Origin: Winogradskyella sp.
GTDB lineage: Bacteria > Bacteroidota > Bacteroidia > Flavobacteriales > Flavobacteriaceae
Direction: 5' to 3'
NCBI RefSeq assembly: GCF_025210595.1
Contig: NZ_JAOARH010000035.1
Span: 1-41,716 of the forward strand
DNA length: 41,716 nt
Position 1 is the first letter of the stretch. Every line of letters begins with the position of its first letter. Positions 19,077 to 38,071 of this stretch are shown in pieces. Position numbers and translations under genes: made by a program. The notes beneath the pieces are model-generated. The model searched no databases. It saw only the letters and a program-made list of their open reading frames with translations, and was not told the DNA's origin.

Positions 19077-19119
19077 TGATTAAAATCATAACAATTTTCA
19101 AAATTGATTACTAAATTTA
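19077..19119 (+). promoter_or_regulatory. FNR-like site and -7 box for the first USP gene (site A)
   Basis: TGATTAAAATCA (19077-19088) is a perfect TGAT-N4-ATCA palindrome. After 23 bases comes TAAATTTA (19112-19119). The site centre is 36.5 bp from the box end, the geometry shared by all seven sites in this window. The box ends only four bases before the ATG, so the transcript should be nearly leaderless. Between them, CAATTTTCAAAATTG (19092-19106) is a second, 15-bp perfect inverted repeat. Confidence 0.65.
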
Positions 19120-19123
19120 GAGC

Positions 19124-19957
19124 ATGAATAATATACTTTTACTTACAGATTTTTCAGATAGTTCGATTAATGCAATCCATTATGCACTTAATTTATTTAA
19201 AGACAATACTTGTGATTTTTTTGTTTTAAATGTAGAATCTTCCATTACCTATTTAGGAGATGATTTAATGACAGTAGGTAATAAAAGTATATACGAATCC
19301 TTAATAAAAAAGCCTAAAGGCAAATTAGAGACCTTAGTTTTAGATTTAGAAAAAGCCTATAACAATGAAAACTTTAGTTTTGAGGCACTTATAGATCATG
19401 ATGTGTTTATAGATGCCATTAACCAAGTGGTAAAAGCCAAGTCAATAGATTTAATTGTAATGGGTACTAATGGTGTAACTGGTGCTAAAGAAGTTGTTTT
19501 TGGTAGTAATACAATTAATGTTATTAGAAAAGTAAATTGTTCTACATTGGTGATTCCTGAAACTTTTAAATACAGAGCACCAAAAGAATTAGTTTTACCA
19601 TTAGGTATCAATGATTCAATTAGCAGTAAAGCCTTTGCTAGCTTGTTGACCTTTGCTAAGCAGTATTCTAAAAAAGTGCATATTATACGCGTTAAGCCTA
19701 ACGATGAAGTTTCGTTAGAGGAAAAACACGATAGTGCATACATAGAAAAAAACTTAAACGATATTAATTACGAATATCATGTGGTAAACCATGTGCCAAT
19801 AAATTATGTAGTAAACTCTTATATACAAACTAATCCAATTGACTTAATAGCTTTGTTAGTGCATAAAGAGAGCTTTTTTGAACGCTTTTTTATTGGCTCT
19901 TCTACTGCACAGATAAGTAATAAGCTAAAATTGCCTTTAATGGTTTACCATGTTTAA
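19124..19957 (+). CDS. universal stress protein, two tandem UspA domains
   Basis: A 277-residue cytosolic protein made of two UspA folds. The first domain begins at once (ILLLTDFSDSSINAIHYALNL). It ends with the ATP-binding signature G-x2-G-x9-G-S in MGTNGVTGAKEVVFGSNT, followed by STLVIPE, so it is an ATP-binding type. The second domain (about 155-277) keeps the fold, ending RFFIGSSTAQISNKLKLPLM, but lacks that glycine signature. USPs accumulate in stasis, oxygen limitation and other stress; the exact role is unknown. It is the only rightward USP here and carries operator site A. Confidence 0.93.
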   Translation: MNNILLLTDFSDSSINAIHYALNLFKDNTCDFFVLNVESSITYLGDDLMTVGNKSIYESLIKKPKGKLETLVLDLEKAYNNENFSFEALIDHDVFIDAINQVVKAKSIDLIVMGTNGVTGAKEVVFGSNTINVIRKVNCSTLVIPETFKYRAPKELVLPLGINDSISSKAFASLLTFAKQYSKKVHIIRVKPNDEVSLEEKHDSAYIEKNLNDINYEYHVVNHVPINYVVNSYIQTNPIDLIALLVHKESFFERFFIGSSTAQISNKLKLPLMVYHV

Positions 19958-20000
19958 TAAAGGCTTAAGATTTCTTTAGTTAAACTTATAAAGCAATAAA

Positions 20001-20450
20001 TTATTCTTTATCTAATAATTGGTTTTGTTTGCTTTCTTTCATAACCAATTTTATAAGATTGAATAGTTTTGTTTTTAAAATGCGGTAGCGTTTTTTAAAC
20101 TCGCCAAATAACTCTGTAAGATTACGATGTTCATTTTTGTAAGCTTTCTCTTTTGCAATTTCATCAATACCATCTACCATAATTGAGAGTTGCTTTTCGT
20201 GAGATTTAACAGCATTAATCAAAGTTTCGGTTTGTGTCACAATTTTAGAAAGTTGGTCTATTAATCGTTTGCTTTCTTCAAAATGATCGTTGTCTAATAT
20301 CTGCAATGTATAAGAACGTATTAGATCTTCAAAGAACCATTGTTCTTCTTTGCAGAATTCTAATTCTGAAAGCCATTTTTTAGACTCAAAATGCATTTCG
20401 TCTGCACTTAGCCATTCGGTATGCTTTGCATTAGTGTGAATTGTTTTCAT
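20001..20450 (-). CDS. helical protein of unknown function in the stress regulon
   Basis: A 149-residue, highly charged protein with no signal peptide or membrane helix. The N-terminal 45 residues include LSADEMHFESKKWLSELEFC. The rest should be almost fully helical (about 50-145), with heptad-like spacing in the segments RLIDQLSKIVTQTETLINAV and FKKRYRILKTKLFNLIKLV. It is probably a dimeric coiled coil. I do not recognise a characterised family. Its promoter carries operator site B, so it belongs with the USPs, and it lies between two of them. Confidence 0.8.
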   Translation of the reverse strand: MKTIHTNAKHTEWLSADEMHFESKKWLSELEFCKEEQWFFEDLIRSYTLQILDNDHFEESKRLIDQLSKIVTQTETLINAVKSHEKQLSIMVDGIDEIAKEKAYKNEHRNLTELFGEFKKRYRILKTKLFNLIKLVMKESKQNQLLDKE

Positions 20451-20491
20451 GATGCATAATTTAAAAAGGTAGGGTTATAAATGTTGGTTAC

Positions 20492-20534
20492 ATAATGTAT
20501 TGATTTTCTGTTTGTTTTAAAATGATTTTTGTCA
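20492..20534 (-). promoter_or_regulatory. FNR-like site and -7-like box for the helical-protein gene (site B)
   Basis: TGATTTTTGTCA (20523-20534) lies 23 bases from a box that reads TACATTAT on the minus strand (20492-20499), the weakest-but-one box of the set. A second box, TACCTTTT (20464-20471, minus), is nearer the ATG but off the common spacing. Confidence 0.5.
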
Positions 20535-20577
20535 GTCTGCTAAAAAATATGTTATCTTTTTTTATTGGTTAGGTTTT

Positions 20578-20617
20578 AAAAAAAAGCTACCAAAATTGAT
20601 TACATTTTGGCAGCTTT
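20578..20617 (-). terminator. terminator after the second USP gene
   Basis: Arms at 20604-20617 and 20583-20596 pair over 14 positions with one mismatch and a seven-base loop. On the minus strand they run into a tract of eight Ts (20578-20585). Confidence 0.8.
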
Positions 20618-20673
20618 ACTAACTAATACAATTGCTGATATAATTTCAGCATTTATTTTTATAATGTTATAAT

Positions 20674-21504
20674 CTATGCTGATGACGGAATTACAAAGAA
20701 TGGTATTTTGGCATGAAATCCTATTTTTTCAATTACAGGTTCGTTGATGATGTTTTCTATAAAACTGTGTTGATAATTTATCATTACCAGTATATCTATA
20801 TTTAAATCATCAATAAAATCCATGATTGTATGTTCTTTTTTAGAGTAATCTGGCATCCAATGAAACGCGTGTGGATAATCTTCTAAATAAGCTTCTAGCA
20901 TCGCCAAATTATAGTTTTGATGGTGGCTAAGGTTTTCTTCTTTATTAATGTGTAAGACTCTTATTTTAGAATTATAAAGCTTTGAGAGCTCTTTTAATGG
21001 CACTAATTCTTCACCATAAAATCGGTTAAAATCTGTTGGAAATGCAATTTGTTCTGGTTCTTTAAAATCACAATCGTGCGGAATTAATAAAATAGGGCAG
21101 GTTTTAATGTGTTTAATAATTTCAACGGTATTACTACCCATAAAAATCTCTTTAGCACCTGTTGCACCTTTGGTACCCATTATTATAAGATCTATGTTGT
21201 GCTTTTTTGTAGCAATTTCTATAGCATCTTCCATAGCGTCAATACTCAATACAGCTTCAAATTTGTGCTTTGGGTTTGCATTAGCTTTTTCTGCCATTTC
21301 TTTAATCTCTATCAGTTCTTGCTTTGCATTTTCTGCCATAGATCGTAATAGCTTATTAGAGATGTTAGACATGGCAGAAGTTTTCATTTTGTAAGAATGT
21401 AAAAAATAAAAGATGCACTCTTCATTGGCATAAAGTTTAAGCGCATACACTGTTGCACACCAGGCGTTATCAGAAAAGTCTGTTGGTAATAGTATTTTTT
21501 TCAT
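20674..21504 (-). CDS. universal stress protein, two tandem UspA domains
   Basis: A 276-residue USP. Domain 1 (about 1-145) opens with ILLPTDFSDNAWCATVYALK and carries the ATP signature in MGTKGATGAKEIFMGSNTVE, followed by CPILLIPH. Domain 2 (about 150-276) has no ATP signature and ends KIGFHAKIPFFVIPSSA. A helical insert in domain 1 (RSMAENAKQELIEIKEMAEK) separates the first two strands. It has its own promoter with operator site C and its own terminator. It is one of four leftward paralogues that differ most in domain 2. Confidence 0.93.
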   Translation of the reverse strand: MKKILLPTDFSDNAWCATVYALKLYANEECIFYFLHSYKMKTSAMSNISNKLLRSMAENAKQELIEIKEMAEKANANPKHKFEAVLSIDAMEDAIEIATKKHNIDLIIMGTKGATGAKEIFMGSNTVEIIKHIKTCPILLIPHDCDFKEPEQIAFPTDFNRFYGEELVPLKELSKLYNSKIRVLHINKEENLSHHQNYNLAMLEAYLEDYPHAFHWMPDYSKKEHTIMDFIDDLNIDILVMINYQHSFIENIINEPVIEKIGFHAKIPFFVIPSSA

Positions 21505-21528
21505 GGCTTAAGTCTAAAATTATATTGT

Positions 21529-21571
21529 AAAAGTTACTTTTAATTCTATCAATATGAAATGATATTAATCA
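21529..21571 (-). promoter_or_regulatory. FNR-like site and -7 box for the second USP gene (site C)
   Basis: TGATATTAATCA (21560-21571) is a perfect TGAT-N4-ATCA palindrome. On the minus strand TAACTTTT (21529-21536) follows after 23 bases. The predicted start near 21524 puts the site centre at about -41.5. Confidence 0.68.
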
Positions 21572-21578
21572 GTCTGGT

Positions 21579-22421
21579 TTATAATTGAGATGGTATTATC
21601 ATAAAAGGTATTTTTAGATGAAAACCAATTTGTTTTATGTTAGATTTAAAGAAAAGATTTTCAAAAAATGAGTGCTTATTATTAATCATTACCAATAGAT
21701 TAATAGGTGTTTTCATTTGAAATTGCGAAATAGCTTCTGGTATATTTTTATTTTCAATGTTGTGGAATAAATGTGCAATACCTTTAAACTTTTCTGCAAT
21801 TTTTTGTCGGTTACCTTCTTGTTGTTCGTTTAATTTTTCGCCATAAAAGACATGCATTATATTAATACGAATACTAAAAAGCTTGGCGATATCTATTATA
21901 GGCTGTAAATGTTGGTCTTTAAAGTTGACTTCATAATCTGAAGGAAATAACAAATCATGAGGTTTTTCAAAAGTGAAACCACTAGGTATAGCTAATACAG
22001 GACATTTAGCATTGTCAAGAACATGAATAGTGTTAGACCCAAACAGAATTTCTTGTACTCCAGACGCTCCTTTTGTACCCATAATAATTAAGTCTATAGA
22101 GTTGTTTTTTACGATATCGCTTATCTCTTCTGTTAGTGTGTTAAAAGAAGATTGGGTGGTAAACTCATGATTTGGATTAGGAAATTCAGTTTCAATTCTT
22201 ACGACTAATTCATTAAGGTTTTTTTGACTGGTTTCTTTAACAGCCTCCATAACTTGAAACTGAGGTGTGCTAGATTGCATAAACTCTATCTGATATACAA
22301 CAGGTGTAAAAGTGTGAAGTAGCTTAAACTTGCAAACTTCATTTTTATATAATTGTAAAGCATACTTTATGGCATTCCAGGAATTATCTGAAAAATCTGT
22401 AGGTAATAATATGTTTTTCAT
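21579..22421 (-). CDS. universal stress protein, two tandem UspA domains
   Basis: A 280-residue USP. Domain 1 begins ILLPTDFSDNSWNAIKYALQ and holds the ATP signature MGTKGASGVQEILFGSNT before CPVLAIPS. Domain 2 ends with HSFFENLFFKSNIKQIGFHL and lacks the signature. It starts 18 bases after the stop of the upstream USP gene (22440-23288), with no room for a promoter, so the two form one transcript driven from site D. Its C-terminal sequence is the closest relative I see for the decayed USP fragment at 27830-27960. Confidence 0.93.
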   Translation of the reverse strand: MKNILLPTDFSDNSWNAIKYALQLYKNEVCKFKLLHTFTPVVYQIEFMQSSTPQFQVMEAVKETSQKNLNELVVRIETEFPNPNHEFTTQSSFNTLTEEISDIVKNNSIDLIIMGTKGASGVQEILFGSNTIHVLDNAKCPVLAIPSGFTFEKPHDLLFPSDYEVNFKDQHLQPIIDIAKLFSIRINIMHVFYGEKLNEQQEGNRQKIAEKFKGIAHLFHNIENKNIPEAISQFQMKTPINLLVMINNKHSFFENLFFKSNIKQIGFHLKIPFMIIPSQL

Positions 22422-22439
22422 GACGATAAATTTTAATTG

Positions 22440-23288
22440 TTAATAACGTCTTATATTTTGTAATGCTAAAAATGGAATATCAATACGAAGACTGATTTCA
22501 TCTATCTTAGATTTAAAGAAAATGTTTTCAAAAAATGAATGTCTTGTGTTTACCATTACTAGCAGATCTACATCATTTTCTTCAATGTAGTTGCAAATAG
22601 CATTGGTAATATTTTCATTTTTAACTGTCTTAATGTTTACTTGGTTTTTGCAGAGTTCGTCTTTTAAAAAGCTTTGGTTGTTTTGTTGCCTAATAGAAAG
22701 TTTATCACTGCTAGAAACATAGAGCATATCTATTATTGCTCTATATGGCACTGCAAGCTCGCACAAGAGTTTTAATTCTCTTCTTTTATACGGAATTAGG
22801 TAATTGGTAGGGAAAAGAATATGCCTTGGTTGAATACCAACATAGTTTTCTGGGATTGCTAATACTGGGCATTGTACATATCGTAATACTTGTAGCGTAT
22901 GGCTTCCAAAGGTTAGTTTTCTGTCGTTAGTATTTCCGCGTGTACCCATAACAACAATATCTATGTTTTCTTCATCTACAATTTTATCTGCTTCGTCAAC
23001 AAGCATATTGTTAGCGGAAATTACTGAAAAGCTATGTCTAGGATTAGGCGATGCTTTTTTTATGTCTTTTAATACTTTTTCTAAGTTTGATTGAGATTTT
23101 TTAGACACCTGTTGCGTAACCTTAACTAAAGTTTCTTGTTGTATGAGTTCTTCATCTTTAAATATTTCATCTTGGTAAGCATGCATTATAAAAAAATTGC
23201 AGATGTCGTATTTAAATAACTCTGCGGCATATTTTAATGCATTCATAGCATTTGCTGAAAAATCTGTTGGAATAAGAATATTTCTCAT
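22440..23288 (-). CDS. universal stress protein, two tandem UspA domains
   Basis: A 282-residue USP, first gene of a two-gene USP transcript. Domain 1 begins ILIPTDFSANAMNALKYAAE. Its ATP signature MGTRGNTNDRKLTFGSHT keeps the spaced glycines but has a more diverged centre than its paralogues. Domain 2 ends HSFFENIFFKSKIDEISLRI. A charged helix (VKVTQQVSKKSQSNLEKVLK) lies early in domain 1. Expression should start from the promoter with operator site D, 24 bases before the ATG. Confidence 0.93.
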   Translation of the reverse strand: MRNILIPTDFSANAMNALKYAAELFKYDICNFFIMHAYQDEIFKDEELIQQETLVKVTQQVSKKSQSNLEKVLKDIKKASPNPRHSFSVISANNMLVDEADKIVDEENIDIVVMGTRGNTNDRKLTFGSHTLQVLRYVQCPVLAIPENYVGIQPRHILFPTNYLIPYKRRELKLLCELAVPYRAIIDMLYVSSSDKLSIRQQNNQSFLKDELCKNQVNIKTVKNENITNAICNYIEENDVDLLVMVNTRHSFFENIFFKSKIDEISLRIDIPFLALQNIRRY

Positions 23289-23311
23289 AATAAAACCATT
23301 TTATAGCTTAT

Positions 23312-23354
23312 TAAAGATAGGGTTTAGGGTAAAATTTAAAAATGATATTTGTCA
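23312..23354 (-). promoter_or_regulatory. FNR-like site and -7 box for the two-gene USP unit (site D)
   Basis: TGATATTTGTCA (23343-23354), then 23 bases, then TATCTTTA on the minus strand (23312-23319). The predicted start near 23307 puts the site centre at about -41.5. Confidence 0.65.
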
Positions 23355-23390
23355 TACAGCTGTTAGGACTGTGACTTATTGTTAAACACT

Positions 23391-23419
23391 AAAAAACAGA
23401 AAGCTCAACTTTCTGTTTT
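23391..23419 (-). terminator. terminator after the fourth leftward USP gene
   Basis: AAAACAGAAAG (23393-23403) and CTTTCTGTTTT (23409-23419) form an eleven-pair stem with a five-base loop. T-rich sequence follows on the minus strand. It separates the 23475-24323 gene from the next USP unit. Confidence 0.82.
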
Positions 23420-23474
23420 ATAATATGATACCAGCTCAAAAATTCTATAATGAATATAGAACTTTCTATAACTG

Positions 23475-24323
23475 TTAGTTTTTTTCGTGTAATACTAAAA
23501 ATGGTTTGTCTGTGTGATAACTAATCTTTTCAACTCTGCTATGAAAGAAGATTTGTTGGAAATAATTTAGGTTTTTAGCTACCATACAAATAAGATCTAT
23601 GTCTCTGCTTTCTACAAAGCATTGTACAGCGTCTTCTACTTTTTTATTTGTTAAATAGTGAAAACTCAGTTGAGTGCTACTAAAGTAGTCTTCAAGTAAT
23701 GCTTTGTTTTGTTTCAATTCGTTTTTTAAAGCGGACTTGTTTTTATTAATGTGTAAGAGTCTTAAGGACGCCTTAAAATGTTCAATGATTTCATTAATTG
23801 GCTGTAAAACATTTAATTTATAACTTAAGTTTAAATCTGTAGGGAAAGCTATCTCTTTTGGAGAAACAAATTCAGCATTTTCTGGTACTGCTAGTGTGTT
23901 GCATTTAACTTTAGTAATTACATCTGCTGTATTTGTACCAAGTATTATTTTATTGAAACCAGAAACTCCCTTTGTGCCCATTACAATAAGATCTATCTTT
24001 TTTTCTTTTACAGTTTTACGTATGCTTTCTATAAAAAAGCCAACATCTGTTAGTACAAAGAATTTGTGAGTATTGTTATGCGCTTTTAATTTTGAAATGC
24101 GTTTTAGAAAACTTTGTAGTTCTAGTTTAGCAGGTTTTGTGTATGTGTTTTCTAGGTAATATGAATCAACAGTTAAAGACTCATTTTGTGGAATGAAACT
24201 ATTTAAACTATTAACATGTAGTATATAAAAGTTACATGTTTTAGAATTAAAAAAGTGAATAGCATATTTAATTGCATTCCATGAGTTCTCAGAAAAATCA
24301 GTAGGTAAAAGCACATTTTTCAT
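23475..24323 (-). CDS. universal stress protein, two tandem UspA domains
   Basis: A 282-residue USP and the first gene downstream of the response regulator. Domain 1 begins VLLPTDFSENSWNAIKYAIH and has the ATP signature MGTKGVSGFNKIILGTNT, then CNTLAVPE. Domain 2 ends FFHSRVEKISYHTDKPFLVL, without the signature. It has its own promoter with operator site E and its own terminator, so it is transcribed separately from the kinase-regulator pair although it points the same way. Confidence 0.93.
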   Translation of the reverse strand: MKNVLLPTDFSENSWNAIKYAIHFFNSKTCNFYILHVNSLNSFIPQNESLTVDSYYLENTYTKPAKLELQSFLKRISKLKAHNNTHKFFVLTDVGFFIESIRKTVKEKKIDLIVMGTKGVSGFNKIILGTNTADVITKVKCNTLAVPENAEFVSPKEIAFPTDLNLSYKLNVLQPINEIIEHFKASLRLLHINKNKSALKNELKQNKALLEDYFSSTQLSFHYLTNKKVEDAVQCFVESRDIDLICMVAKNLNYFQQIFFHSRVEKISYHTDKPFLVLHEKN

Positions 24324-24341
24324 AAAATGAGTTTAATATCT

Positions 24342-24384
24342 TAAATGTATGTGCTTAGAGGTTTTTATAAAATGATTTGTATCA
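24342..24384 (-). promoter_or_regulatory. FNR-like site and -7 box for the 23475-24323 USP gene (site E)
   Basis: TGATTTGTATCA (24373-24384) is a perfect TGAT-N4-ATCA palindrome, 14 bases from the response-regulator stop. After 23 bases the minus strand reads TACATTTA (24342-24349). The predicted start near 24337 gives a centre at about -41.5. Confidence 0.68.
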
Positions 24385-24398
24385 TTTTAGGTCATTAT

Positions 24399-25451
24399 TT
24401 ATTGCATTTGTTTTAGCCCTTCAATGTCTTTAATTACAATGTTTCTTCCTTCAGAAATAATTAACCCTTTGTTTTTAAAACTGGTTAGAGTGCGTATTAA
24501 GGTTTCGGTTGCTACACCTGCAACGCTTGCTAAATCATTTCTAGATATTTTAATTGGGTCGTTTGGCTTTTGGTTTATTCTTTCGGCAAATTGAAGTATA
24601 GTATTAGCCGTTTTTTTGTTAACTGAACTATATGCCATTTGTAAGAGTTGTTCTTTAACTTCAGATAAATCGTCGGTTAAATGATCTATTAGTGCAACGG
24701 CAACTTTATTATTTTTGTCTAAAATTTCTGAAAGCTGAAGAATAGATAATCCTGCTAACTCTGTTTCTTGTATGGCTGTCGCGGTTTCTTTGTGTGGTAG
24801 ATTATGTGTAAATGAGGTATAACCAAACAAATTATCTTCTTTGTATAAACTAGTTGCTAGCTCTTTGCCTTTATCGTCTAGCTTATGGCATTTTACCACA
24901 CCCTTTTTTATAAGGTAAATATAGTTAGCGTGGTCGCCTTCTCTATAGATTATTTGGTCTTTGTTAAAGTGGTATTCTTTTCCGTAGTCATCAAAGAAAT
25001 TTTTTAAATCATTGATGGAGGTTAATTCATCTTTTTCAGAATAATTATTAACATTAACCTGCTGACCTTGGTCTTTTAAAATACTGGCCTTTGCAAGCCT
25101 ACTTTTAATGGCACTAACTAATTCATCTTCTGTAAAGGGTTTTGTGATGTAATCATCTGCGCCAAGATTCATGCCTTTTCTTACATCTTTATGTTCTGTT
25201 TTTGCAGATAAAAAAATAAAAGGAATATGTTTAGTATTATTGCTTTTAGAAACTTCTTTTAGTACTTCGTAGCCGTCTAATTCTGGCATCATAATATCAC
25301 AAACAATAATGTCTGGCAAATTACTATGAATTGATTTTAAACCTAGCTTACCGTTGGGTGCTGTAATCACTTCAAAGTTTAATATTTCTAACAGCTCAGC
25401 AGTGTTTTCTCTTAATATTGTATCGTCTTCTATGAGTAAAACTTTAGTCAT
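24399..25451 (-). CDS. response regulator with CRP/FNR-type output (REC, cNMP fold, HTH)
   Basis: A 350-residue fusion. Residues 1-120 are a complete receiver domain: acidic pocket E8/D9/D10, phospho-acceptor D52 (VCDIMMPELDG), S82 and K104 (ADDYITKPF). After a short linker, residues 150-265 form a cyclic-nucleotide-binding-like jelly roll (DQIIYREGDHANYIYLIKKG). Residues 300-335 are a Crp-type helix-turn-helix (ISRNDLASVAGVATETLIRT). In the recognition helix E316 and R320 occupy the Glu and Arg positions that read the GA core in FNR and CRP sites. It has no FNR-type cysteine cluster, so direct oxygen sensing by Fe-S is unlikely. Its start overlaps the kinase stop by 8 bases. It is the natural candidate to bind sites A-G, but that is inference. 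Confidence 0.95.
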   Translation of the reverse strand: MTKVLLIEDDTILRENTAELLEILNFEVITAPNGKLGLKSIHSNLPDIIVCDIMMPELDGYEVLKEVSKSNNTKHIPFIFLSAKTEHKDVRKGMNLGADDYITKPFTEDELVSAIKSRLAKASILKDQGQQVNVNNYSEKDELTSINDLKNFFDDYGKEYHFNKDQIIYREGDHANYIYLIKKGVVKCHKLDDKGKELATSLYKEDNLFGYTSFTHNLPHKETATAIQETELAGLSILQLSEILDKNNKVAVALIDHLTDDLSEVKEQLLQMAYSSVNKKTANTILQFAERINQKPNDPIKISRNDLASVAGVATETLIRTLTSFKNKGLIISEGRNIVIKDIEGLKQMQ

Positions 25452-27300
25452 GGTTTACGTTATTTGGTATCTTAAGTTTTGCTAGTGTGCCTTTGTTTTC
25501 TATACTATTAATTGTTATGCTACCACCTAAATTTTCTATATGAGTTTTTACAATGTTAAGACCAATGCCAGTGCCTTGCATATTTAAAACATTTTCTGCT
25601 CTGTAATATCTTGTAAAGATGTTTTCCATCTCTTTTTTTGGTATTCCTATGCCATGATCTTCAATTTCAAAAACAAAGTGGTTTTTATGTTGTTTAACTC
25701 TTATGTCAATTTCTGAGTTTTCTCCAGAATACTTGACAGCGTTTTGAAGAACATTAGACAAAATAAGTTCAATTATTCTTTCGTCTTGATATAGCGTAAT
25801 CTCATCTACATGCTCAGGATAGTTAATGCGTTGTCCTTCTTTTAATAGCATATTGGCATTATAAACAACTTCATTAACAACCTTGCTTAATTTAAAACTT
25901 GAGCAGTTATAATTGAATGTTCCAGATTCTAATCTTTCTATTGATAAAAAGTCATTTAATATTGTATTAAGGTAATTTACTTTATCCTTAATAATTGCTA
26001 AATGTTTATCGCGTTTAGGTTGTTCTTCTGTGAGTTTGTATTTTTCTAACAACATGATTGATGTTGCTATACCACTTAAAGGTGTTTTAAATTCGTGAGA
26101 TACAAGGGATAGGAATTTGGTTTTGAGTTCGTTGAGTTCTTTTTCTTTGCTTAGTGCTTTTTGTAATTGTTCGGTTCTTTCCTTAACGGTTTTTTCGAGC
26201 TTTATGGTGTAATTCTTTTGCTCTGTTATGTCTACTACTATGGCTACAAAAACCTTTCTGTTTTTTAGATTAGATAGTTGCAGGTGCACCATTACAGGAT
26301 ATTTTGTGCCATCTTTTCTAAAATGTGTGGCTTCAAAATCTATTTGCTCTGCTTCTTGCCTTAGTAATAAATCAATGTACTTTTCTCTAAATACCTTTTC
26401 ATTTAAATGTAATTTTAAATCTAAAGGAGTCATAGATTTAAGCTCTTCTATAGTATAACCTATATTTTTTAAGGCGCCTCTGTTAACATTTATAAACTTT
26501 AGAGTTTCGGCATCAAAAACATAGATTTCATTTAGCGATTCATTAAAAATTGTAGCTAAATGATTTTTTGCCTCTTCGGCTATAACACGTTCTGTTACAT
26601 CATTTTGTATGCCAATAAAATTTGTAACAATCCCTTTTTTATTAGTTATTGGCGTAATGAATAGGTCGTTCCAAAAAAGGGTGCCGTCTTTTTTATAATT
26701 TCTTAGGGTTACAAGGCAGCTATCACCGTTTTTTATTGCTTTTCTTAGCTTTTTAAGCTCTTCTTGTTCCCTGTCTTTACTTTGTAGAATTCGACAATTT
26801 TTATTTAATATTTCCTCTTTAGAATACCCAGTTAATTTTTCAAAAGCAGGATTGTTATAAATAACAGGATTTCCAGGTTTTAAAGCATCTGTAATTAAAA
26901 TTCCATTGCTGGCAGATTCTAAAGCTTTGCTTCTAAGCATAAAATCGAATTCATCTTCTTTTTGCTTTGATATGTCTTTGACTAGTACCATAACATAGTT
27001 GCTTTCATAGACAGAAAAAGGATTTAGCTCTAATTTTATAGGTATAGTATCACCATCTTTTTTTAAACCATAAATTTCGGTAATACTATCTGTATGATGT
27101 TCTTTGTTTTTTACCTCAGTGTAACTATTAGATATTAGCATTTTTAAAGTTTTGCCAATAATGTCTTTTTTATCATAATTAAAAGTGTGTTCGGCTATAC
27201 TGTTAATTACCTTGATGTTTTGTTCTTCGTCAATAATAATAACTGCTTCCGAGATGGCTTCTAGCAAGATGTTGAATATTTCTAAATCTTGATTAATCAT
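25444..27300 (-). CDS. cytosolic PAS-LOV-PAS histidine kinase, predicted blue-light sensor
   Basis: A 618-residue soluble kinase with no membrane helix. PAS1 spans about 8-115 and PAS3 about 245-362. A short coiled coil (365-395) leads to HisKA with H402 (SLVSHEFKTPLSGI). The HATPase domain has N520, D548 (DHGIGI) and GTGIGL (576-581). The second PAS (about 130-238) is a LOV domain. It has NCRILQ with photoactive Cys169, NYKKDG, FWND and IGIQND. Aligned without gaps to oat phototropin LOV2, it keeps N168, R170, Q173, R186, N201, N211 and Q232, the FMN-contact positions I know. Phe of NCRFLQ is Ile171. LOV domains form a Cys-FMN adduct under blue light. Redox sensing by the flavin is an alternative. 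The response regulator overlaps its stop, so the two form one operon. Confidence 0.94.
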   Translation of the reverse strand: MINQDLEIFNILLEAISEAVIIIDEEQNIKVINSIAEHTFNYDKKDIIGKTLKMLISNSYTEVKNKEHHTDSITEIYGLKKDGDTIPIKLELNPFSVYESNYVMVLVKDISKQKEDEFDFMLRSKALESASNGILITDALKPGNPVIYNNPAFEKLTGYSKEEILNKNCRILQSKDREQEELKKLRKAIKNGDSCLVTLRNYKKDGTLFWNDLFITPITNKKGIVTNFIGIQNDVTERVIAEEAKNHLATIFNESLNEIYVFDAETLKFINVNRGALKNIGYTIEELKSMTPLDLKLHLNEKVFREKYIDLLLRQEAEQIDFEATHFRKDGTKYPVMVHLQLSNLKNRKVFVAIVVDITEQKNYTIKLEKTVKERTEQLQKALSKEKELNELKTKFLSLVSHEFKTPLSGIATSIMLLEKYKLTEEQPKRDKHLAIIKDKVNYLNTILNDFLSIERLESGTFNYNCSSFKLSKVVNEVVYNANMLLKEGQRINYPEHVDEITLYQDERIIELILSNVLQNAVKYSGENSEIDIRVKQHKNHFVFEIEDHGIGIPKKEMENIFTRYYRAENVLNMQGTGIGLNIVKTHIENLGGSITINSIENKGTLAKLKIPNNVNHD

Positions 27301-27364
27301 GGTGAAGTTTACATAAATTGTAAGTAATAAAAGTATAAAATTTAGAGAGATTAATCTACTGTAA

Positions 27365-27407
27365 TGATTAATGTCATTCTTTAATTGTATTGATTTAAAT
27401 ACCTTGT
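27365..27407 (+). promoter_or_regulatory. FNR-like site and -7-like box for the TerB-like gene (site F)
   Basis: TGATTAATGTCA (27365-27376), then 23 bases, then TACCTTGT (27400-27407), the weakest box of the set. It faces the TerB-like gene. The site is also 64 bases upstream of the divergent kinase ATG, but toward the kinase the common spacing meets no -7-like box. A TACTTTTA at 27328-27335 (minus) lies 6 bp off register. Confidence 0.5.
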
Positions 27408-27430
27408 GTGGTTATTAATACAATTTTATA

Positions 27431-27796
27431 ATGTCAGAAGAGCTATTAACACGTTTGGGATGTTTGTTTTATGCAATTGCTAAAGCTGATAACAATCTGT
27501 CTTTTCATGAATACTTTAAACTAACTGAAATTTTAGAAAAGCATTGGCAGCATATTGGAGAAACCAACATAGCATATATAAAATCTAAGTTTAATACACT
27601 ACAGGAAAATAATGCAGCAGCAGCAGCTTGTTTTAATGCTTTTTTAGAATTTTTGCACCAATACCCAAATTTATTTGATGATGAGTTTAAGACACTAATA
27701 CTTAAAACAGCAAATGAAATTGCTTATGCCTATGCTAAAATCAACAAATCTGAGTTAAACTTTATGGCTAGATTAAGTTTAGAGTTTAAAAAGTAA
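27431..27796 (+). CDS. TerB-like helical protein
   Basis: A 121-residue all-helical protein resembling the TerB/DjlA-N domain. The first helix reads LGCLFYAIAKADNNLSFHEY, where AKAD-x-LSxxE corresponds to the acidic motif of the TerB family. The fold appears complete, ending NFMARLSLEFKK. TerB-like domains are linked to tellurite and other stress and to membrane-associated complexes; no specific role follows. It is divergent from the LOV kinase and carries operator site F, so it is a probable member of the same regulon. It has no signal peptide or membrane helix. Confidence 0.75.
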   Translation: MSEELLTRLGCLFYAIAKADNNLSFHEYFKLTEILEKHWQHIGETNIAYIKSKFNTLQENNAAAAACFNAFLEFLHQYPNLFDDEFKTLILKTANEIAYAYAKINKSELNFMARLSLEFKK

Positions 27797-27829
27797 TGAA
27801 AATAATACCTGTGGCTTTATTTTTATGTT

Positions 27830-27960: not shown

Positions 27961-28051
27961 ATAAAAAGTTAGTGTTTAGAATACCTAAGACTAGGGGTTG
28001 TTTTGCTGATTAAAAGTTTTGTATAACAGAAGACTTTTTTAGTTTTATAAG

Positions 28052-31728: not shown

Positions 31729-31732
31729 TTTT

Positions 31733-32467: not shown

Positions 32468-32472
32468 GGCTA

Positions 32473-33051
32473 TTAATTCTTATTTAGGGCTATTTGTCTT
32501 AACTTTTGCATACATCTGTATTTTTTATTTCGTGTTGAAGCTGAATCTAATTGCAATTCTTCAGCAATAAGTTTCATAGATTTCTTTTCGAAATAAAACT
32601 TACGTAATAAGTTTTTGCAAGGCGAACCTAAGTTTTTAAAGGCAAACATTACATCCTCTAATCGTTTATCTTTTAAAATGTCATCATCCATACCGTTATT
32701 TTCTTCATCTTTTATTTCAAAATAGGATAATTGCGATGCTGTAATTGTTTTTTTGTAGCCTTGAGAGCGTAATACGTCCATCCATTTGTTTTTGGCTATA
32801 GTGTACAGATAACCATTAATTGAGGATTCGCTTTGTGGAATAAATTTATCTTGTTTTACGTTTTGCCATACAGCCAAAAACGCTTCCTGAAATATATCTT
32901 TTGCATGTTCTTTTGTGCCATTATTTTTTAAGACCAGTGTTTCAATTTTAGGGTAATTGCTGGTGTAAATACGTTTTAAGGTAGTAGAATCATTACACTT
33001 AATAGCGTTAACGACTTGTAATTTATTGTCGATCTTGTATGTGTTCCTCAT
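32473..33051 (-). CDS. ECF-type RNA polymerase sigma factor
   Basis: A 192-residue sigma-70-family factor with only regions 2 and 4. Region 2 spans about 25-95 (KDIFQEAFLAVWQNV for core binding; YLYTIAKNKWMDVLRSQGYK for -10 recognition). Region 4 spans about 135-185 (LLRKFYFEKKSMKLIAEELQ and a helix-turn-helix reading TRNKKYRCMQKL). It starts the operon, ahead of the membrane anti-sigma-like TPR protein and the TPR-CHAT protease, and is presumably held inactive by its neighbour. Its target promoters are unknown; autoregulation is usual for such factors. Confidence 0.93.
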   Translation of the reverse strand: MRNTYKIDNKLQVVNAIKCNDSTTLKRIYTSNYPKIETLVLKNNGTKEHAKDIFQEAFLAVWQNVKQDKFIPQSESSINGYLYTIAKNKWMDVLRSQGYKKTITASQLSYFEIKDEENNGMDDDILKDKRLEDVMFAFKNLGSPCKNLLRKFYFEKKSMKLIAEELQLDSASTRNKKYRCMQKLRQIALNKN

Positions 33052-33069
33052 GTTAATAGCTAAACATGA

Positions 33070-33100
33070 GTAAGATACAATTTATTCGTTTTTTCACCAA
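33070..33100 (-). promoter_or_regulatory. possible promoter of the sigma/CHAT operon
   Basis: On the minus strand TTG (33098-33100), a 20-base spacer and TATCTTAC (33070-33077) loosely match the housekeeping consensus. The box ends 18 bases before the sigma-factor ATG. Confidence 0.35.
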
Positions 33101-33177
33101 TAGTAACGATTCATAAAACTTTTTTAACGATGAAAAGCTATTGTCTATTTAAGTTTCATCAATAAAAAGAGGTATAG

Positions 33178-33831
33178 TTATTTTGATAAGACATTATCGT
33201 CATCTATCAATTTTCTATTGTTGTTTTTTATAATGTCTTTTCCTAGCCAACCTCCACCAATGATTAATAAAAAAACACCAGACCAACGCATCATATTAAA
33301 TCCAGATGAAGGTGCGTCCATATCAAATTCAAAAACAGATTTTCCATAAGCATCCTTATCTGTTCTAATATTTTTTGCTTTGTTAGGAAGTTCAACAATA
33401 AAAGTTTGTTGTAGATTGCCACCATATTCTGGAGGACTGCTAACTAGCATGTATTTATTGCCGGTTAATTCTGTAAGTTGTGCATTTTTCTGATCTGTAT
33501 CTACAATCCATTTACCACGTTTATTAATCTCACATACACCATAAGCATTGAGGCTAAGATTAAAAGAACGATTCATGTCGTCTTTTTCTAATTTAAAATT
33601 ATCGAGAAAATAAGCAGGCATAGAGCGTTCTATATCTCGTTTTAATGCTGAAGGATTATTACCGTAATTACTATTCCAAACTTGCCATTGTTGAGCATTC
33701 ATAGTCATGGATACTGCAAGTTTAGCATTGCCAATAGAGTCTATTCGCATTTCTATCTTTTGCTGAGATTGTGCATTGATGCTTGTATTGAATAACAATA
33801 CACATACGATTGTTTTTATTAATGTTTTCAT
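33178..33831 (-). CDS. exported protein with C-terminal membrane anchor, unknown
   Basis: A 217-residue protein with a Sec signal peptide (MKTLIKTIVCVLLFNTSINA, cleavage near residue 20). A beta-rich exported domain follows (about 25-175; IEMRIDSIGNAKLAVSMTMN). Near the C-terminus one hydrophobic helix (MRWSGVFLLIIGGGWLG, about 183-199) is followed by a basic/acidic cytoplasmic tail. I do not recognise a family. It starts 11 bases after the transglutaminase-like gene, so the two are almost certainly co-transcribed. They may form a membrane complex with their larger domains outside. Confidence 0.82.
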   Translation of the reverse strand: MKTLIKTIVCVLLFNTSINAQSQQKIEMRIDSIGNAKLAVSMTMNAQQWQVWNSNYGNNPSALKRDIERSMPAYFLDNFKLEKDDMNRSFNLSLNAYGVCEINKRGKWIVDTDQKNAQLTELTGNKYMLVSSPPEYGGNLQQTFIVELPNKAKNIRTDKDAYGKSVFEFDMDAPSSGFNMMRWSGVFLLIIGGGWLGKDIIKNNNRKLIDDDNVLSK

Positions 33832-33842
33832 GATGATTTTAT

Positions 33843-35456
33843 TTATCTGATACTGCTATAAACTTGATTTATTACTGAAGAATTTTGATTATACATATAA
33901 TCTGGTGCGCCAACGGCTACAATTCTAATACCACCTTGTCTTCTTATGGCTTTGCCAATCCAATTAAAAGTTCCGTTGGCAGAATAGGTTTGTCCTGCTA
34001 TAGAGCTACCATTAATTTGATATTGCATCTGCATACCAAAACTTGATAAATATTGATCTACTGTTGCCATACCTTGTTGAGTGTTAGAAGCGGCAATGTC
34101 GTAAATAGTAACCGTTGTCATTTGATCTGGTGCAACTACCTGAGCTGTAACAATTGGCATTTGAGGTACAGGATGCATCATGGTTTGCCAGCCTGCTGGA
34201 ATTGAGAATGAAAGCGAGTTGCTAGTACGTATACGATTATTAGGAAGTCTAATTTCGTTTTCTCTTCTATTATTTGGGATAACTTGTTGTTCGTTAGACC
34301 ATGAAGAAACAATATCATCAACCTTTTTTCGCATAAAATCATTGTCTTTTAAATCCATAGAAGTTACTCCTTGTGCATTTACATTATGGATATCTACAAT
34401 AGTGTATCTAGGGTCACCAGCTTGAGAGCGTTCTATAAATTCTTGCAGTTGTTTTTGACCTTGTTTATAGGCGTCTTCTGCACTCATAATATTGCCTAAG
34501 CCTTCTCCGCCAATTCCTGTGGCCTCAATAGCATAATATTGACCATTCATTCTAAAACCAGGATACGCATGGCCAGGAACCATGTAAATTATAGGATCTA
34601 TACCTGCTGCCGAAAGTACACTGGCATATAAAACGCTCAGTTCTATGCAAAGTCCTGTGTTTCCTGTAATAACTTCGCGTGGTAATCTAACCTGTTGTAC
34701 TATACTTTGTACATCATCAGTAGATTTTGGTATGCCTTTAGTGCCACTATAAACCATATGAGATTTTCGAGTGGCTTCGTAAATACCTCCTAAAAAGCGA
34801 ACAGCATCTTCTGGTTTACGAGTTACCGAAGCGGCTTCACCTTTTAATAGTTTTTCTTGTAAATTTTGTGTGTAATATTTTACAACAGGATCATTTGGAG
34901 TAACAAAGCATGCTATAAGCGCATCGTTGTCGTACATGTCTGCCCAAGAACTAATTTCTTCAGTTTTTATGCCAGTGTAGACATATTCATTTCTATTAGT
35001 AAGTTTAAATGTAAAATCTTCTTCAATAATGTCGTCTTCCTCAGCACCATCCCAAGAGATTTCTATTTCTGCTTTTTCAACAGACTCTGTGGTCTTCTCA
35101 GTAATTTCATTATTAAACTTAGGATAACATGGTACAACTAAAGTTTGTCCAGGAAACATCTCGCCAGAAACTGTCAATTCTGTCCAATCTATATAATTGG
35201 GTATGCGATATTTTACGGTAACGTCTTCTAAAGTATTTGAAGAATTATTAGTGATTTTTGCTTTAAATAGATAATATTTTCCGTCTAGAGCATCAGCATT
35301 AGAGTATACTCTATGAGCTGCAGGCATTATAAATGCACTTTTTTCAATACTTATATCTATATCTTCAGCATTACCTTTTTTTGAACTAAAAAAACTAAAG
35401 GCAGTGAGTATGAGTCCTACGGTAGCTAAAGCTAAAGGAATGGCTATTTTTTTCAT
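33843..35456 (-). CDS. exported transglutaminase-like protein
   Basis: A 537-residue protein with an N-terminal membrane anchor or signal (AIPLALATVGLILTAFSFF, about 5-23). An immunoglobulin-like domain follows (about 40-150; YYLFKAKITNNSSNTLEDV). The transglutaminase-like core (about 190-330) keeps a plausible triad: Cys270 in TGNTGLCIELSVLYASVLSA, His296 in VPGHAYPG, and an acidic Glu311 in YAIEATG, where Asp is usual. The C-terminal part (about 400-537) is beta-rich, with a segment (PAGWQTMMHP) like the start of PsbP/DUF1795-type domains. Such enzymes act as peptidases or crosslinkers; the substrate is unknown. It is the middle gene of a three-gene leftward operon with 21- and 11-base gaps. 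Confidence 0.88.
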   Translation of the reverse strand: MKKIAIPLALATVGLILTAFSFFSSKKGNAEDIDISIEKSAFIMPAAHRVYSNADALDGKYYLFKAKITNNSSNTLEDVTVKYRIPNYIDWTELTVSGEMFPGQTLVVPCYPKFNNEITEKTTESVEKAEIEISWDGAEEDDIIEEDFTFKLTNRNEYVYTGIKTEEISSWADMYDNDALIACFVTPNDPVVKYYTQNLQEKLLKGEAASVTRKPEDAVRFLGGIYEATRKSHMVYSGTKGIPKSTDDVQSIVQQVRLPREVITGNTGLCIELSVLYASVLSAAGIDPIIYMVPGHAYPGFRMNGQYYAIEATGIGGEGLGNIMSAEDAYKQGQKQLQEFIERSQAGDPRYTIVDIHNVNAQGVTSMDLKDNDFMRKKVDDIVSSWSNEQQVIPNNRRENEIRLPNNRIRTSNSLSFSIPAGWQTMMHPVPQMPIVTAQVVAPDQMTTVTIYDIAASNTQQGMATVDQYLSSFGMQMQYQINGSSIAGQTYSANGTFNWIGKAIRRQGGIRIVAVGAPDYMYNQNSSVINQVYSSIR

Positions 35457-35477
35457 AACTGAATTGTTTTAGTGTTA

Positions 35478-36230
35478 TTATTGTCTATTTGGGTCGAAAG
35501 GAAAATTGTCTTGAGTGTCTGGTGTTCCGTCTAAATCTGAATCTCTTACACCATTGTCTATAATTAGAAGTTGCCAATGTATAGGTAAAAATGTATCCAT
35601 TATTAAAGTATCGAATTCTTCTGTAGGTCCAGAAGAAATGGATACATTGGCAAAAGTGGAACCTAATGAGGTTTCAAAATAAGAATTGATGGCAACTAAA
35701 GCTGTAATATTTCCAAAGCGGATTAATCGTGTACTCGTACTCACAATAAAACTGCCTTGCGATTGCGTTACATTTTGTTCGCAATCTACCGTAAAGTTTC
35801 CTGTATGTCCATAAAAAGCAAAAAGCTGATTAACTTCAGAAGCGACGATATCTAAAATATTAACCTGACTTAAAGAGGTTAAGCCAGGTACATATCTCCA
35901 AAGTACTTGGTTATCGTTTCTTAATACATTAACACCTAAGCCAATTTGTGCTTCTGAAGCTGTGTAGCCTTGAGGCATAGTAAATCCTAAACCAGGATAT
36001 TGGCTGTGTATAAATTGTTGTCCAGGATTAGACAATGTAGGTATTTGGGACAATGGTATGGGTAAACCATGAGCATTGTCCCAATATGCAGCTGTTGGTC
36101 CAGTTACATTTTCACATAATTGCGATGTAAAGTTTGCAAGCGGATTAGTGTTGTCTTTATTAGAGTCTGAGCTACATGCAGATAGTAAAAGAACAACAAC
36201 TAAGGTTTTAAAGATATTAATGCGATTCAT
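35478..36230 (-). CDS. lipoprotein with C-terminal calcium-binding-like motif
   Basis: A 250-residue lipoprotein with signal IFKTLVVVLLLSAC and lipid-bearing Cys about residue 19, then SSDSNKDN. The body (about 35-225) contains no motif I recognise. The last 20 residues read VRDSDLDGTPDTQDNFPFDP, a thrombospondin-type-3 (DxDxDGxxDxxD) calcium-binding repeat seen often in Bacteroidota surface proteins. It is the first gene of the operon with the transglutaminase-like protein, 21 bases ahead of it. The 99-base gap upstream (36231-36329) is AT-rich and shows no clear promoter. Confidence 0.8.
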   Translation of the reverse strand: MNRINIFKTLVVVLLLSACSSDSNKDNTNPLANFTSQLCENVTGPTAAYWDNAHGLPIPLSQIPTLSNPGQQFIHSQYPGLGFTMPQGYTASEAQIGLGVNVLRNDNQVLWRYVPGLTSLSQVNILDIVASEVNQLFAFYGHTGNFTVDCEQNVTQSQGSFIVSTSTRLIRFGNITALVAINSYFETSLGSTFANVSISSGPTEEFDTLIMDTFLPIHWQLLIIDNGVRDSDLDGTPDTQDNFPFDPNRQ

Positions 36231-36329
36231 AAGAAAGAGGTTTTAAGTTCATTTCTTACTTATCGGCACATTATTAAAATGTCATCAAATAAAACATTTT
36301 AATTGCAAAAACTTTAATCTGTAAAATGA

Positions 36330-37997
36330 TTAAAATAAACCACTGATTTCACCATCATCACTAATGTCAATACCTTCAGATGCAGGATGAGCAGGTAAAC
36401 CAGGCATACGCATTATCTCTCCAGTAATAGGAATTAAAAAGCCTGCACCAGAAGCGATTTCTATTTCACGTACAGTAATAATAAAATCTTTTGGTCTACC
36501 AAGTAACTTAGGATTATCTGATAATGATTTTTGTGTTTTGGCTATACATACTGGCAATTTGTCTAGTTCAAGCTCCTTAATACGCTTTAGCTGACGTTTT
36601 GCACTAGTGTTATAATCTACATGTTCTGCACCATATATTTTTTTGGCAATGGTTTCAATTTTTGCTTCAATATCCATATCCCAACTATAAAGTGGTGTAA
36701 ATTTAGCTTGGTTTGCTTCTGCAACTTCTATGACGTGTTCTGCAAGTTTTATGGCACCTTTACCACCTTTAGTCCAAACACTAGCTACTGCGACTCTAAT
36801 GTTCTTTATTTTAGCTAAATCTTTTATAAGTTGAATTTCTTCTTTAGTGTCAGATTTAAATTTATTAATAGCAATTATAGGTGTAACACCAAATTGCATA
36901 ATATTTTCAAGATGCTTTTCTAAATTAGGAAGTCCTTTTCTCAAAGCTTCAACATTAGGAACGTCTAAAGATTTTAAATCTGCTCCACCATGATATTTAA
37001 GCGCACGTATTGTTGTGGTTAAAACAACTGCTTTTGGAGATATACCTGCGCTTTGGCATTTAATATCAAAGAATTTTTCAGCACCTAAGTCAAAACCAAA
37101 ACCTGCTTCTGTTACTGTATAGTCAGAATAGCTCATTCCCATTAAGGTTCCAATTACAGAGTTAGTACCTTGGGCAATATTAGCAAATGGTCCTCCGTGA
37201 ATTATGGCTGGATTACCTTCTATGGTTTGTACTAAATTAGGTTTTACAGCATGTTGTAAAAGCGTTGCCATTGCGCCTGCAACTTTTAAATCTCTAGCAT
37301 ATATTGGTTTTTTTGAAAATGTATACCCTATAAATATGTTTCCTAATCGTTCTTTAAGGTCACTAAGACTTTTAGAAATACATAAAATGGCCATTATTTC
37401 TGAGGCAGCTGTGATATCAAAACCTGTTTCTCTTGGTATACCAGATGAGGTTCCGCCAAGCCCAACAATAATTCGTCTTAGTGCTCTATCATTCATGTCA
37501 ACCACACGTTTCCAAGTAATTGTTCTTGGGTCTAATCCTAAGGAATTTGTTCGGCTTTGTATGTTGTTGTCTATAACAGCAGACAAGAGATTATGCGCTT
37601 TTTCAATGGCAGAGAAATCACCAGTAAAATGTAAATTAATATCCTCTAAGGGTAATACTTGCGAATAACCACCACCAGTAGCACCACCTTTAATTCCAAA
37701 AACAGGACCTAAGGATGGTTCTCTTAAAACTACTGTTGTTTTTTTGTTTAATTGGTTAAGTGCTTCAGATAAACCAATAGAAATGGTTGTTTTACCTTCA
37801 CCAGCAGGTGTAGGTGATATTGCTGAAACCAGAATGAGGTTACTTTTATCGGCTTTATTTCGGTCTATAAGAGATAAAGGAAGCTTTGCTTTATCCTTAC
37901 CATACATTTCTAAATTATTTGGGTCAATTCCAAATTTCTCTGCTATTTCTGTTATGGGTTTTAGTTTTACCTGTTTGGCAATTTGAAGATCAGTCAT
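36330..37997 (-). CDS. fhs: formate--tetrahydrofolate ligase
   Basis: Makes 10-formyl-THF from formate, THF and ATP, feeding purine and one-carbon metabolism. The 555 residues match the normal family length. Family landmarks are visible: the nucleotide-binding loop PTPAGEGKTTISIGLSEAL (about 62-80), REPSLGPVFGIKGGATGGGY (93-112), and TVREIEIASGAGFLIPITGE then IMRMPGLPAHPASEGIDI at the C-terminus. It is monocistronic. Its promoter carries operator site G with a perfect -7 box at the same spacing as the USP promoters, which would make it a member of that regulon although it lies 10 kb away. Confidence 0.98.
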   Translation of the reverse strand: MTDLQIAKQVKLKPITEIAEKFGIDPNNLEMYGKDKAKLPLSLIDRNKADKSNLILVSAISPTPAGEGKTTISIGLSEALNQLNKKTTVVLREPSLGPVFGIKGGATGGGYSQVLPLEDINLHFTGDFSAIEKAHNLLSAVIDNNIQSRTNSLGLDPRTITWKRVVDMNDRALRRIIVGLGGTSSGIPRETGFDITAASEIMAILCISKSLSDLKERLGNIFIGYTFSKKPIYARDLKVAGAMATLLQHAVKPNLVQTIEGNPAIIHGGPFANIAQGTNSVIGTLMGMSYSDYTVTEAGFGFDLGAEKFFDIKCQSAGISPKAVVLTTTIRALKYHGGADLKSLDVPNVEALRKGLPNLEKHLENIMQFGVTPIIAINKFKSDTKEEIQLIKDLAKIKNIRVAVASVWTKGGKGAIKLAEHVIEVAEANQAKFTPLYSWDMDIEAKIETIAKKIYGAEHVDYNTSAKRQLKRIKELELDKLPVCIAKTQKSLSDNPKLLGRPKDFIITVREIEIASGAGFLIPITGEIMRMPGLPAHPASEGIDISDDGEISGLF

Positions 37998-38028
37998 ATA
38001 TGTTTTTTTGATGAATTTATTTTAAATT

Positions 38029-38071
38029 CAAATTTAAATCCTAAACAGTAATTAAATAGTGATTTTTATCA
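38029..38071 (-). promoter_or_regulatory. FNR-like site and perfect -7 box for fhs (site G)
   Basis: TGATTTTTATCA (38060-38071), then 23 bases, then TAAATTTG on the minus strand (38029-38036), an exact TAnnTTTG. The box ends 31 bases before the fhs ATG. The predicted start near 38024 puts the site at about -41.5. Confidence 0.68.

Follow-up and report, generated by a model that had tools for sequence, protein, structure and literature searches.

The window analysed here, positions 1 to 41,716 of contig NZ_JAOARH010000035.1 of Winogradskyella sp. (assembly GCF_025210595.1), carries seven copies of an FNR-like palindrome, TGAY-N4-RTCA, each set 23 bp before a TAnnTT promoter box and facing a gene, among them genes for universal stress proteins (USPs). 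These sites very probably belong to a flavobacterial regulon of FNR/FixK type with about 30 promoters, whose box would be read from the class II position by two activators of the CRP/FNR family: an FNR-like protein encoded on another contig, and a response regulator encoded in the window that joins a receiver to CRP-type domains (REC-CRP). The probable role of these switches in marine flavobacteria is to induce genes for life at low oxygen and for survival of stress. From what the sequence itself holds, that is the sites, their spacing and conservation, the genes behind them, their co-occurrence with the regulators, and the intact phosphorylation and cysteine residues of the latter, we infer binding, activation and low oxygen as the signal. 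The first-pass annotation of this DNA had proposed an FNR-like regulon with fixed class II geometry; its observation is real and its reading essentially right, being supported by genome-wide, cross-genus and gene-content evidence. It made no mention of the two likely regulators, nor of the LOV domain in the kinase of the one encoded within the window.

Spaced sites and their target genes

Scanning both strands of the window for TGAY-N4-RTCA returned eight cores. In seven, TAnnTT lies exactly 23 bp on and faces a downstream gene, and all seven are noncoding although the window is 91% coding; the eighth, at 13205 inside gldN, has no TAnnTT at that gap. Against the seven observed sites, 300 second-order Markov simulations of the window gave a mean of 0.05 and a maximum of 1. 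The sites are:

19077..19119, + strand: core 19077-19088, -7 box 19112-19119; before the USP gene at 19124
20492..20534, - strand: core 20523-20534, box 20492-20499; before the 149-aa gene 20001-20450
21529..21571, - strand: core 21560-21571, box 21529-21536; before the USP gene 20674-21504
23312..23354, - strand: core 23343-23354, box 23312-23319; before the USP genes 22440-23288 and 21579-22421
24342..24384, - strand: core 24373-24384, box 24342-24349; before the USP gene 23475-24323
27365..27407, + strand: core 27365-27376, box 27400-27407; before the TerB-like gene 27431-27796
38029..38071, - strand: core 38060-38071, box 38029-38036; before the formate-tetrahydrofolate ligase gene 36330-37997

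The sites had been listed before under coordinates that prove to be the first base of each 12-bp core, with a gap of 23 bp that holds in all seven when measured between the core's last base and the T of TAnnTT. The word they were said to share, AATGAT or AGTGAT followed by N4-RTCAT, fits five; the exceptions are 20523 and 21560, whose plus-strand ending is RTCAG, and the word common to all seven is the broader TGAY-N4-RTCA. Likewise, the 36.5 bp given from centre to box is the distance to the last base of the octamer, that to its first base being 29.5, a correction that leaves the predicted centre at -41.5 unaffected. The boxes were also described as lying on the strand of the nearest gene; at 38060 the box does face fhs (the ligase gene) on the minus strand, but the nearest open reading frame (ORF) start is that of era, 10 bp away on the plus strand.

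The position of the promoter follows from published starts. An excerpt of PMC9723704 places the TAnnTTTG box of mapped Flavobacterium psychrophilum starts at -12 to -5, and with a gap of 23 bp this would centre the palindrome at -41.5, the class II position, by arithmetic from that published box position. At 19124 the predicted +1 coincides with the ATG, and thus the USP mRNA may be leaderless.

Genome-wide (3.12 Mb in 157 contigs, with the reversed pattern as control), the core followed by 23 bp and TAnnTT occurs 37 times, against once for the control. The bare core is not enriched, at 208 places versus 192, which means that the signal is carried by the spacing, as had been argued from the window. 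Outside genes lie 31 of the 37, whose boxes are followed by a start codon at 6-78 bp (two of these sites, on contigs C9 and C34, touch an ORF edge and are scored as outside), five are intragenic (contigs C54, C87, C93, C134 and C140) and the last, C129:3978, fits neither count; the spaced motif is therefore commoner before genes than inside them, as the regulon proposal needed. At a gap of 22 bp there are nine matches versus four for the reversed pattern.

The genes that follow the sites in the window are:

19124..19957, + strand: universal stress protein (PF00582), target
20001..20450, - strand: 149-aa protein with no Pfam match and no assigned function, target
20674..21504, - strand: universal stress protein (Pfam), target
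21579..22421, - strand: universal stress protein (Pfam), no spaced site of its own, probable operon partner of 22440
22440..23288, - strand: universal stress protein (Pfam), target
23475..24323, - strand: universal stress protein (Pfam), target, directly downstream of the REC-CRP gene
27431..27796, + strand: TerB-like protein (PF05099), target, divergent from the kinase gene
36330..37997, - strand: formate-tetrahydrofolate ligase, fhs (NF010030), target

Sites thus precede four of the five USP genes, and the fifth, only 18 bp from the gene at 22440, is probably a member of the same operon. By eye, a four-member cluster behind sites in relatives starts like the 149-aa protein. Elsewhere in the genome (names from Pfam; ccoN, a COX1 match, hemN, a radical SAM match, and the copper ATPase read by eye) the targets include genes of low-oxygen respiration, as expected for an FNR-type regulon: cbb3 ccoN, hemN, two cytochromes c and a CCP/MauG peroxidase. 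At the ccoN site the first ORF is one of 60 aa, 23 bp after the box, with ccoN itself at 213 bp. Further targets encode a bacterial globin, the enzymes PPK2 and triosephosphate isomerase, two pyridine-nucleotide oxidoreductases, a pyridoxamine-oxidase-like protein, an S30AE ribosome-hibernation protein, a CBS protein, OmpW, a TonB protein and a transporter. In F. psychrophilum under oxygen limitation, cbb3 and heme-synthesis genes are raised, according to the same excerpt (PMC9723704).

The window also holds, between 28507 and 36230, two proteins of 1073 and 244 aa with TPR-type matches, an ECF-type sigma factor, a protein weakly matching the anti-phage ProA, and unknowns.

Conservation of the spaced box

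Related loci were taken as the best 80 of 517 confirmed relatives of the window's response regulator, all flavobacterial by title save one titled only Bacteroidia. Among their 878 core-strands, 353 have the box at a gap of 23, and no other gap between 1 and 49 accounts for more than 30; at gap 0 there are 80, TAnnTT being often formed there by the first base pair past the core together with the spacer. For four scrambled palindromes, gap 23 scored between 0 and 3 in the same loci. In a family survey of 120 genomes (one per genus, at least 90% completeness, the Winogradskyella genome included) we counted 2796 spaced sites versus 359 for the control, and a rough sum over 20 genomes from other orders of the same class gave 197 versus 41. 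Chance palindromes in AT-rich DNA would leave the bare core unenriched, as it is, yet the 37-to-1 ratio of the spaced form, the simulations of the window, the gap profile of the related loci, the survey and the recurrence of the site before several orthologous genes lead us to reject chance, to which we give next to no credence.

The same numbers bear on whether the sites could serve repression or class I control instead of class II activation. CRP/FNR proteins can repress too, and a core lacking TAnnTT at gap 23 does stand 40 bp before the FNR-like gene (see below); against this, all seven window sites would be centred at -41.5, gap 23 far exceeds gap 22 over the 120 genera (2796 versus 712), and there is no second comparable spacing up to 49 in the related loci. 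We therefore regard a repressor or class I role as improbable and keep to class II activation.

The letters outside the search pattern are also constrained. Over 352 sites in the 80 loci, the base before the core is C (57%) or A (38%) and the one after it, at -35, is T in 97%; in the box the seventh place is T in 78% and the eighth G (48%) or A (47%), and the predicted start is A in 53%. The FNR palindrome TTGAT-N4-ATCAA is not what these sites spell, their core being TGAY-N4-RTCA; in the window, the site at 38060 lacks the T at -35. A start codon follows at a median of 24 bp, as measured at the 316 of 353 sites where an ORF of 60 aa or more begins no further than 220 bp away.

Ortholog promoters, whose alignment the first-pass annotation had suggested, give strong support for some genes and a mixed picture overall. 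Seven loci were compared (L001, L002, L003, L009, L024, L033 and L046), with orthologs defined by at least 40% identity. A site precedes the ortholog of the USP gene at 23475 in 7/7 loci, that of the USP gene at 22440 in 5/5 and that of the TerB-like gene in 3/3, where an uncounted hit at 30% identity in L024 also has one; the spacer letters of conserved sites vary between loci. The USP gene at 21579 has a site in none of five ortholog loci (an uncounted hit at 38% identity in L001 has one), fhs is absent from all seven loci, and the USP gene at 19124 has no usable ortholog among them, most hits being below 40% identity and the row of L033 an artefact of slicing. In the close relatives L001 and L002, spaced sites with the gap of 23 stand before the kinase gene as well as before the TerB-like gene; the window has one for the TerB-like gene alone.

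Clustering the genes behind sites in relatives again brings out stress proteins. The largest cluster is USP-like (named by eye), with 147 sites and members in all 80 loci; the second, TerB-like by eye with a representative lacking a Pfam match, has 45 members in 45 of the 80 loci, and next come WG-repeat, pyridoxamine-oxidase-like, DUF3298, Hsp20, ccoN-like and DnaJ clusters. Of the USP ORFs that phmmer finds in the related loci, 143 of 206 have an exact spaced site. Dense islands of spaced sites were seen at G109 C1:3858813-3885961, G103 C80:296452-320597 and G095 C1:19078-49711, and those of G103 and G095 include a REC-CRP gene.

Two candidate readers and a LOV kinase

The genome has four matches to the Crp-type helix-turn-helix (HTH), and two of these, the window's REC-CRP and a 225-aa FNR-like protein on contig C32, have the same recognition helix, T-E-x-x-I-R. 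Judging from the DNA contacts of FNR, the isoleucine in place of FNR Ser212 may explain the changed outer base of the box. The regulator and its neighbour are:

24399..25451, - strand: REC-CRP response regulator; receiver, cNMP-binding-type and Crp-type HTH domains (Pfam)
25444..27300, - strand: histidine kinase whose three PAS domains include a central LOV (Cys169), proposed partner of REC-CRP (sequence, PDB matches, model)

In REC-CRP, E8, D9, D10, D52, S82 and K104, together with E316, I319 and R320 of the recognition helix region, are identical in 81/81 rows (the window and 80 loci). The phosphorylation residues are thus intact and a kinase ORF is adjacent, as expected of a response regulator.

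The FNR-like gene lies near cbb3 and copper-ATPase genes. Its product has invariant C4, C7, C53 and C106 in 30 genomes (31 aligned rows, the Winogradskyella protein being counted twice), and C4, C7 and C106 align with cysteines of FNR-type regulators in the PDB, 5e44 (from Aliivibrio fischeri) and others. Three of the four cysteines that bind the [4Fe-4S] cluster of FNR are thus at their positions. The protein probably senses oxygen through an iron-sulfur cluster. A core without TAnnTT at gap 23 (L122:15577-15588) lies between the copper-ATPase-like gene and the FNR-like gene, 40 bp before the latter, and autoregulation of the FNR-like gene through it is possible.

How the two regulators relate to the box can be judged from their distribution. 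At cut-offs of E <= 1e-60 for REC-CRP and E <= 1e-40 for the C32-type FNR-like protein, the former is found in 61 and the latter in 79 of the 120 genera. Genera with neither have a mean of 2.8 sites (control 1.9, n=15), those with the FNR-like protein only 16.8 (control 3.6, n=44), those with REC-CRP only 24.8 (control 2.5, n=26) and those with both 39.1 (control 3.0, n=35). Small genomes as the cause of low counts in genera without regulators were considered and rejected: six of the 15, at 3 Mb or more, have 0-5 sites by eye. The type of site also shifts. In the order neither, FNR-like only, REC-CRP only and both, T at -34 is found in 5%, 14%, 38% and 34% of sites, and C at -48 in 10%, 22%, 39% and 31%, a comparison that omits two of the 44 FNR-like-only genomes with fewer than five sites; the -34 prediction preceded its tests but had been prompted by a few of the genomes later tested, of which it is not fully independent. 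The whole pattern fits two readers with overlapping, slightly different preferences.

A plain FNR reading with a single regulator was set aside because genera that have only the response regulator also carry sites. In its fuller form, the FNR-like protein would be the sole reader, REC-CRP would have other targets and the co-occurrence would reflect lineage. The location of the FNR-like gene near cbb3 genes and the many sites of genera with this protein alone would suit it; it does not account for the difference between REC-CRP-only genera and those with neither regulator, for the site subtype that changes with regulator class, or for the USP-like cluster behind sites in every one of the 80 loci fetched by REC-CRP, and we consider it unlikely. 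The converse, a REC-CRP that is the only reader of the box in this genome beside an FNR-like protein with another binding sequence, draws on the seven sites that surround the REC-CRP gene and on the fully conserved receiver residues. Given the 16.8 sites that FNR-like-only genera average and the matching recognition helices, it seems less likely still.

We thus favour a model with two readers. Both activators would bind TGAY-N4-RTCA-T centred at -41.5, next to the sigma-A -7 box TAnnTTTG, and would drive transcription from this class II position. One would be the FNR-like protein, whose gene has the cbb3 oxidase genes nearby; the other, REC-CRP, would be controlled through phosphorylation by the kinase of the overlapping gene, would prefer boxes with T at -34 and C at -48, and would mainly serve the surrounding USP island.

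Several observations weigh against this model. Its rigid geometry is softened by gap 22, which over the 120 genera is found 712 times versus 395 for the control, suggesting that the spacing may be not absolutely rigid. Conservation is uneven: a site precedes the ortholog of the USP gene at 20674 in 3/6 loci, that of the 149-aa gene in 0/2 (L001 and L033) and the kinase gene in 2/7, and 63 of the 206 USP ORFs lack an exact site of their own despite enough upstream DNA. In the window, the both-strand core scan found no box at gap 23 for the kinase-regulator operon. Some targets fit low oxygen less well (a C5 DNA methylase, an outer-membrane beta-barrel, DUF6815, DUF3857 and several unknowns), and in the alignment with PDB FNR-type regulators the FNR-like protein lacks the third classical ligand and has Cys53 in addition. 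As to the co-occurrence, the absence of a regulator rests on E-value cut-offs, the rank-test p-values overstate certainty because the 120 genera are related, and the genome G055, which lacks a REC-CRP hit at the cut-off and is classed as FNR-like only, does not fit, with 52 sites of which 20 have T at -34.

The kinase is the putative input to REC-CRP. Its gene overlaps that of the regulator, and a kinase ORF lies directly upstream of REC-CRP in 79 of the 80 loci, the 80th beginning too near a contig end to tell; the pairing is suggested by this arrangement. In the window kinase, NCRILQ, RNYKKDGTLFWN and GIQND provide the photoactive cysteine and the flavin-contacting N, N and Q of a LOV domain, and its best PDB matches include a blue-light photoreceptor, a phototropin, an aureochrome and LOV proteins. 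A structure model (mean pLDDT 76.9, pTM 0.33), silent on flavin, has three PAS-like folds and puts Cys169 where a helix begins. The kinase looks able to see blue light. The LOV signature is present in 20 of the 79 upstream kinases; the other 59 are shorter (378-501 aa) and lack it, and of six of these scanned with Pfam, three have one PAS stretch and three have two. The photoactive cysteine is kept in 19/19 aligned LOV kinases (the window and 18 of the 20 LOV loci). Five of these (L007, L008, L017, L021 and L047) have GILND for GIQND, the flavin Gln being replaced by Leu with the cysteine kept. A short protein with a C-terminal LOV/PAS domain is also encoded at 39080-39646, right after era; its YtvA-family match is below that family's cut-off.

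Tentatively, the LOV kinase, through blue light or flavin redox, could phosphorylate a REC-CRP that shares its box with the oxygen-sensing FNR-like protein, integrating light and oxygen at low-oxygen and universal-stress promoters of Winogradskyella-like flavobacteria; relatives would keep regulator, box and targets with a shorter, non-LOV PAS kinase. We hold this extension to be possible, at odds well short of even.

Comparison with known systems

A full-text literature search, which was not exhaustive, returned no oxygen regulon or such box described for Flavobacteriaceae; an excerpt of a 2021 study has a CRP/FNR homolog of a Flavobacteriales genome predicted to sense carbon (PMC8510549). 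In a family whose members are common in the sea, the box with its fixed spacing would offer a ready motif for low-oxygen promoters. The findings also suggest that one promoter code is shared by two signal inputs, one phosphorylation-driven and one cysteine-bearing, and that the kinase has a LOV photosensor in some genera and lacks it in others.

One close parallel is with the FNR proteins. At E. coli class II CRP/FNR promoters the activator is likewise centred at -41.5, next to -35/-10 elements instead of the Bacteroidota -33/-7. The FNR-like protein described here aligns with 5e44-type regulators and keeps three of their cysteines. In the part of PMC4634722 that deals with FnrL of Rhodobacter capsulatus, the core is TGA-N6-TCA with a variable first base (T/C/A), and the directly regulated genes include ccoN, UspA, the cytochrome c peroxidase gene ccpA and PPK2, a set much like ours. 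The last base differs, T here (97%) and A in FnrL (90%), according to the same part (PMC4634722). FNR and FnrL also differ from the present system in the Bacteroidota sigma-A box, in the missing third ligand and invariant Cys53 of the FNR-like protein, and in the second, putatively phosphorylatable reader.

The LOV kinase recalls LovK of Brucella and Caulobacter, LOV histidine kinases in which a LOV domain with a photoactive cysteine likewise lies upstream of the HisKA/HATPase core; here the LOV domain sits between two other PAS domains and the response partner would be a CRP-type transcription factor. FixL carries a heme PAS, in contrast to the LOV of our kinase. Control of several universal stress proteins by a two-component system is shared with mycobacterial DosS/DosT-DosR, which responds to hypoxia; DosR, however, is a NarL-type regulator with an unrelated box. 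In the FixLJ-FixK2 cascade, as outlined in a portion of PMC9104804, a two-component system also feeds a CRP/FNR-type activator of microaerobic genes, and the FixK2-dependent genes of Bradyrhizobium diazoefficiens include USP, Hsp20, DnaJ and pyridoxamine oxidase genes; the FixK2 box differs, being TTG(A/C)-N6-(T/G)CAA. Instead of a separate FixJ activating fixK, we find receiver and CRP domains in a single REC-CRP protein, in which the FixJ and FixK steps appear fused. The putative flavobacterial regulon is new in its box, in its promoter context and in a phosphorylation-driven REC-CRP beside an FNR-like reader.

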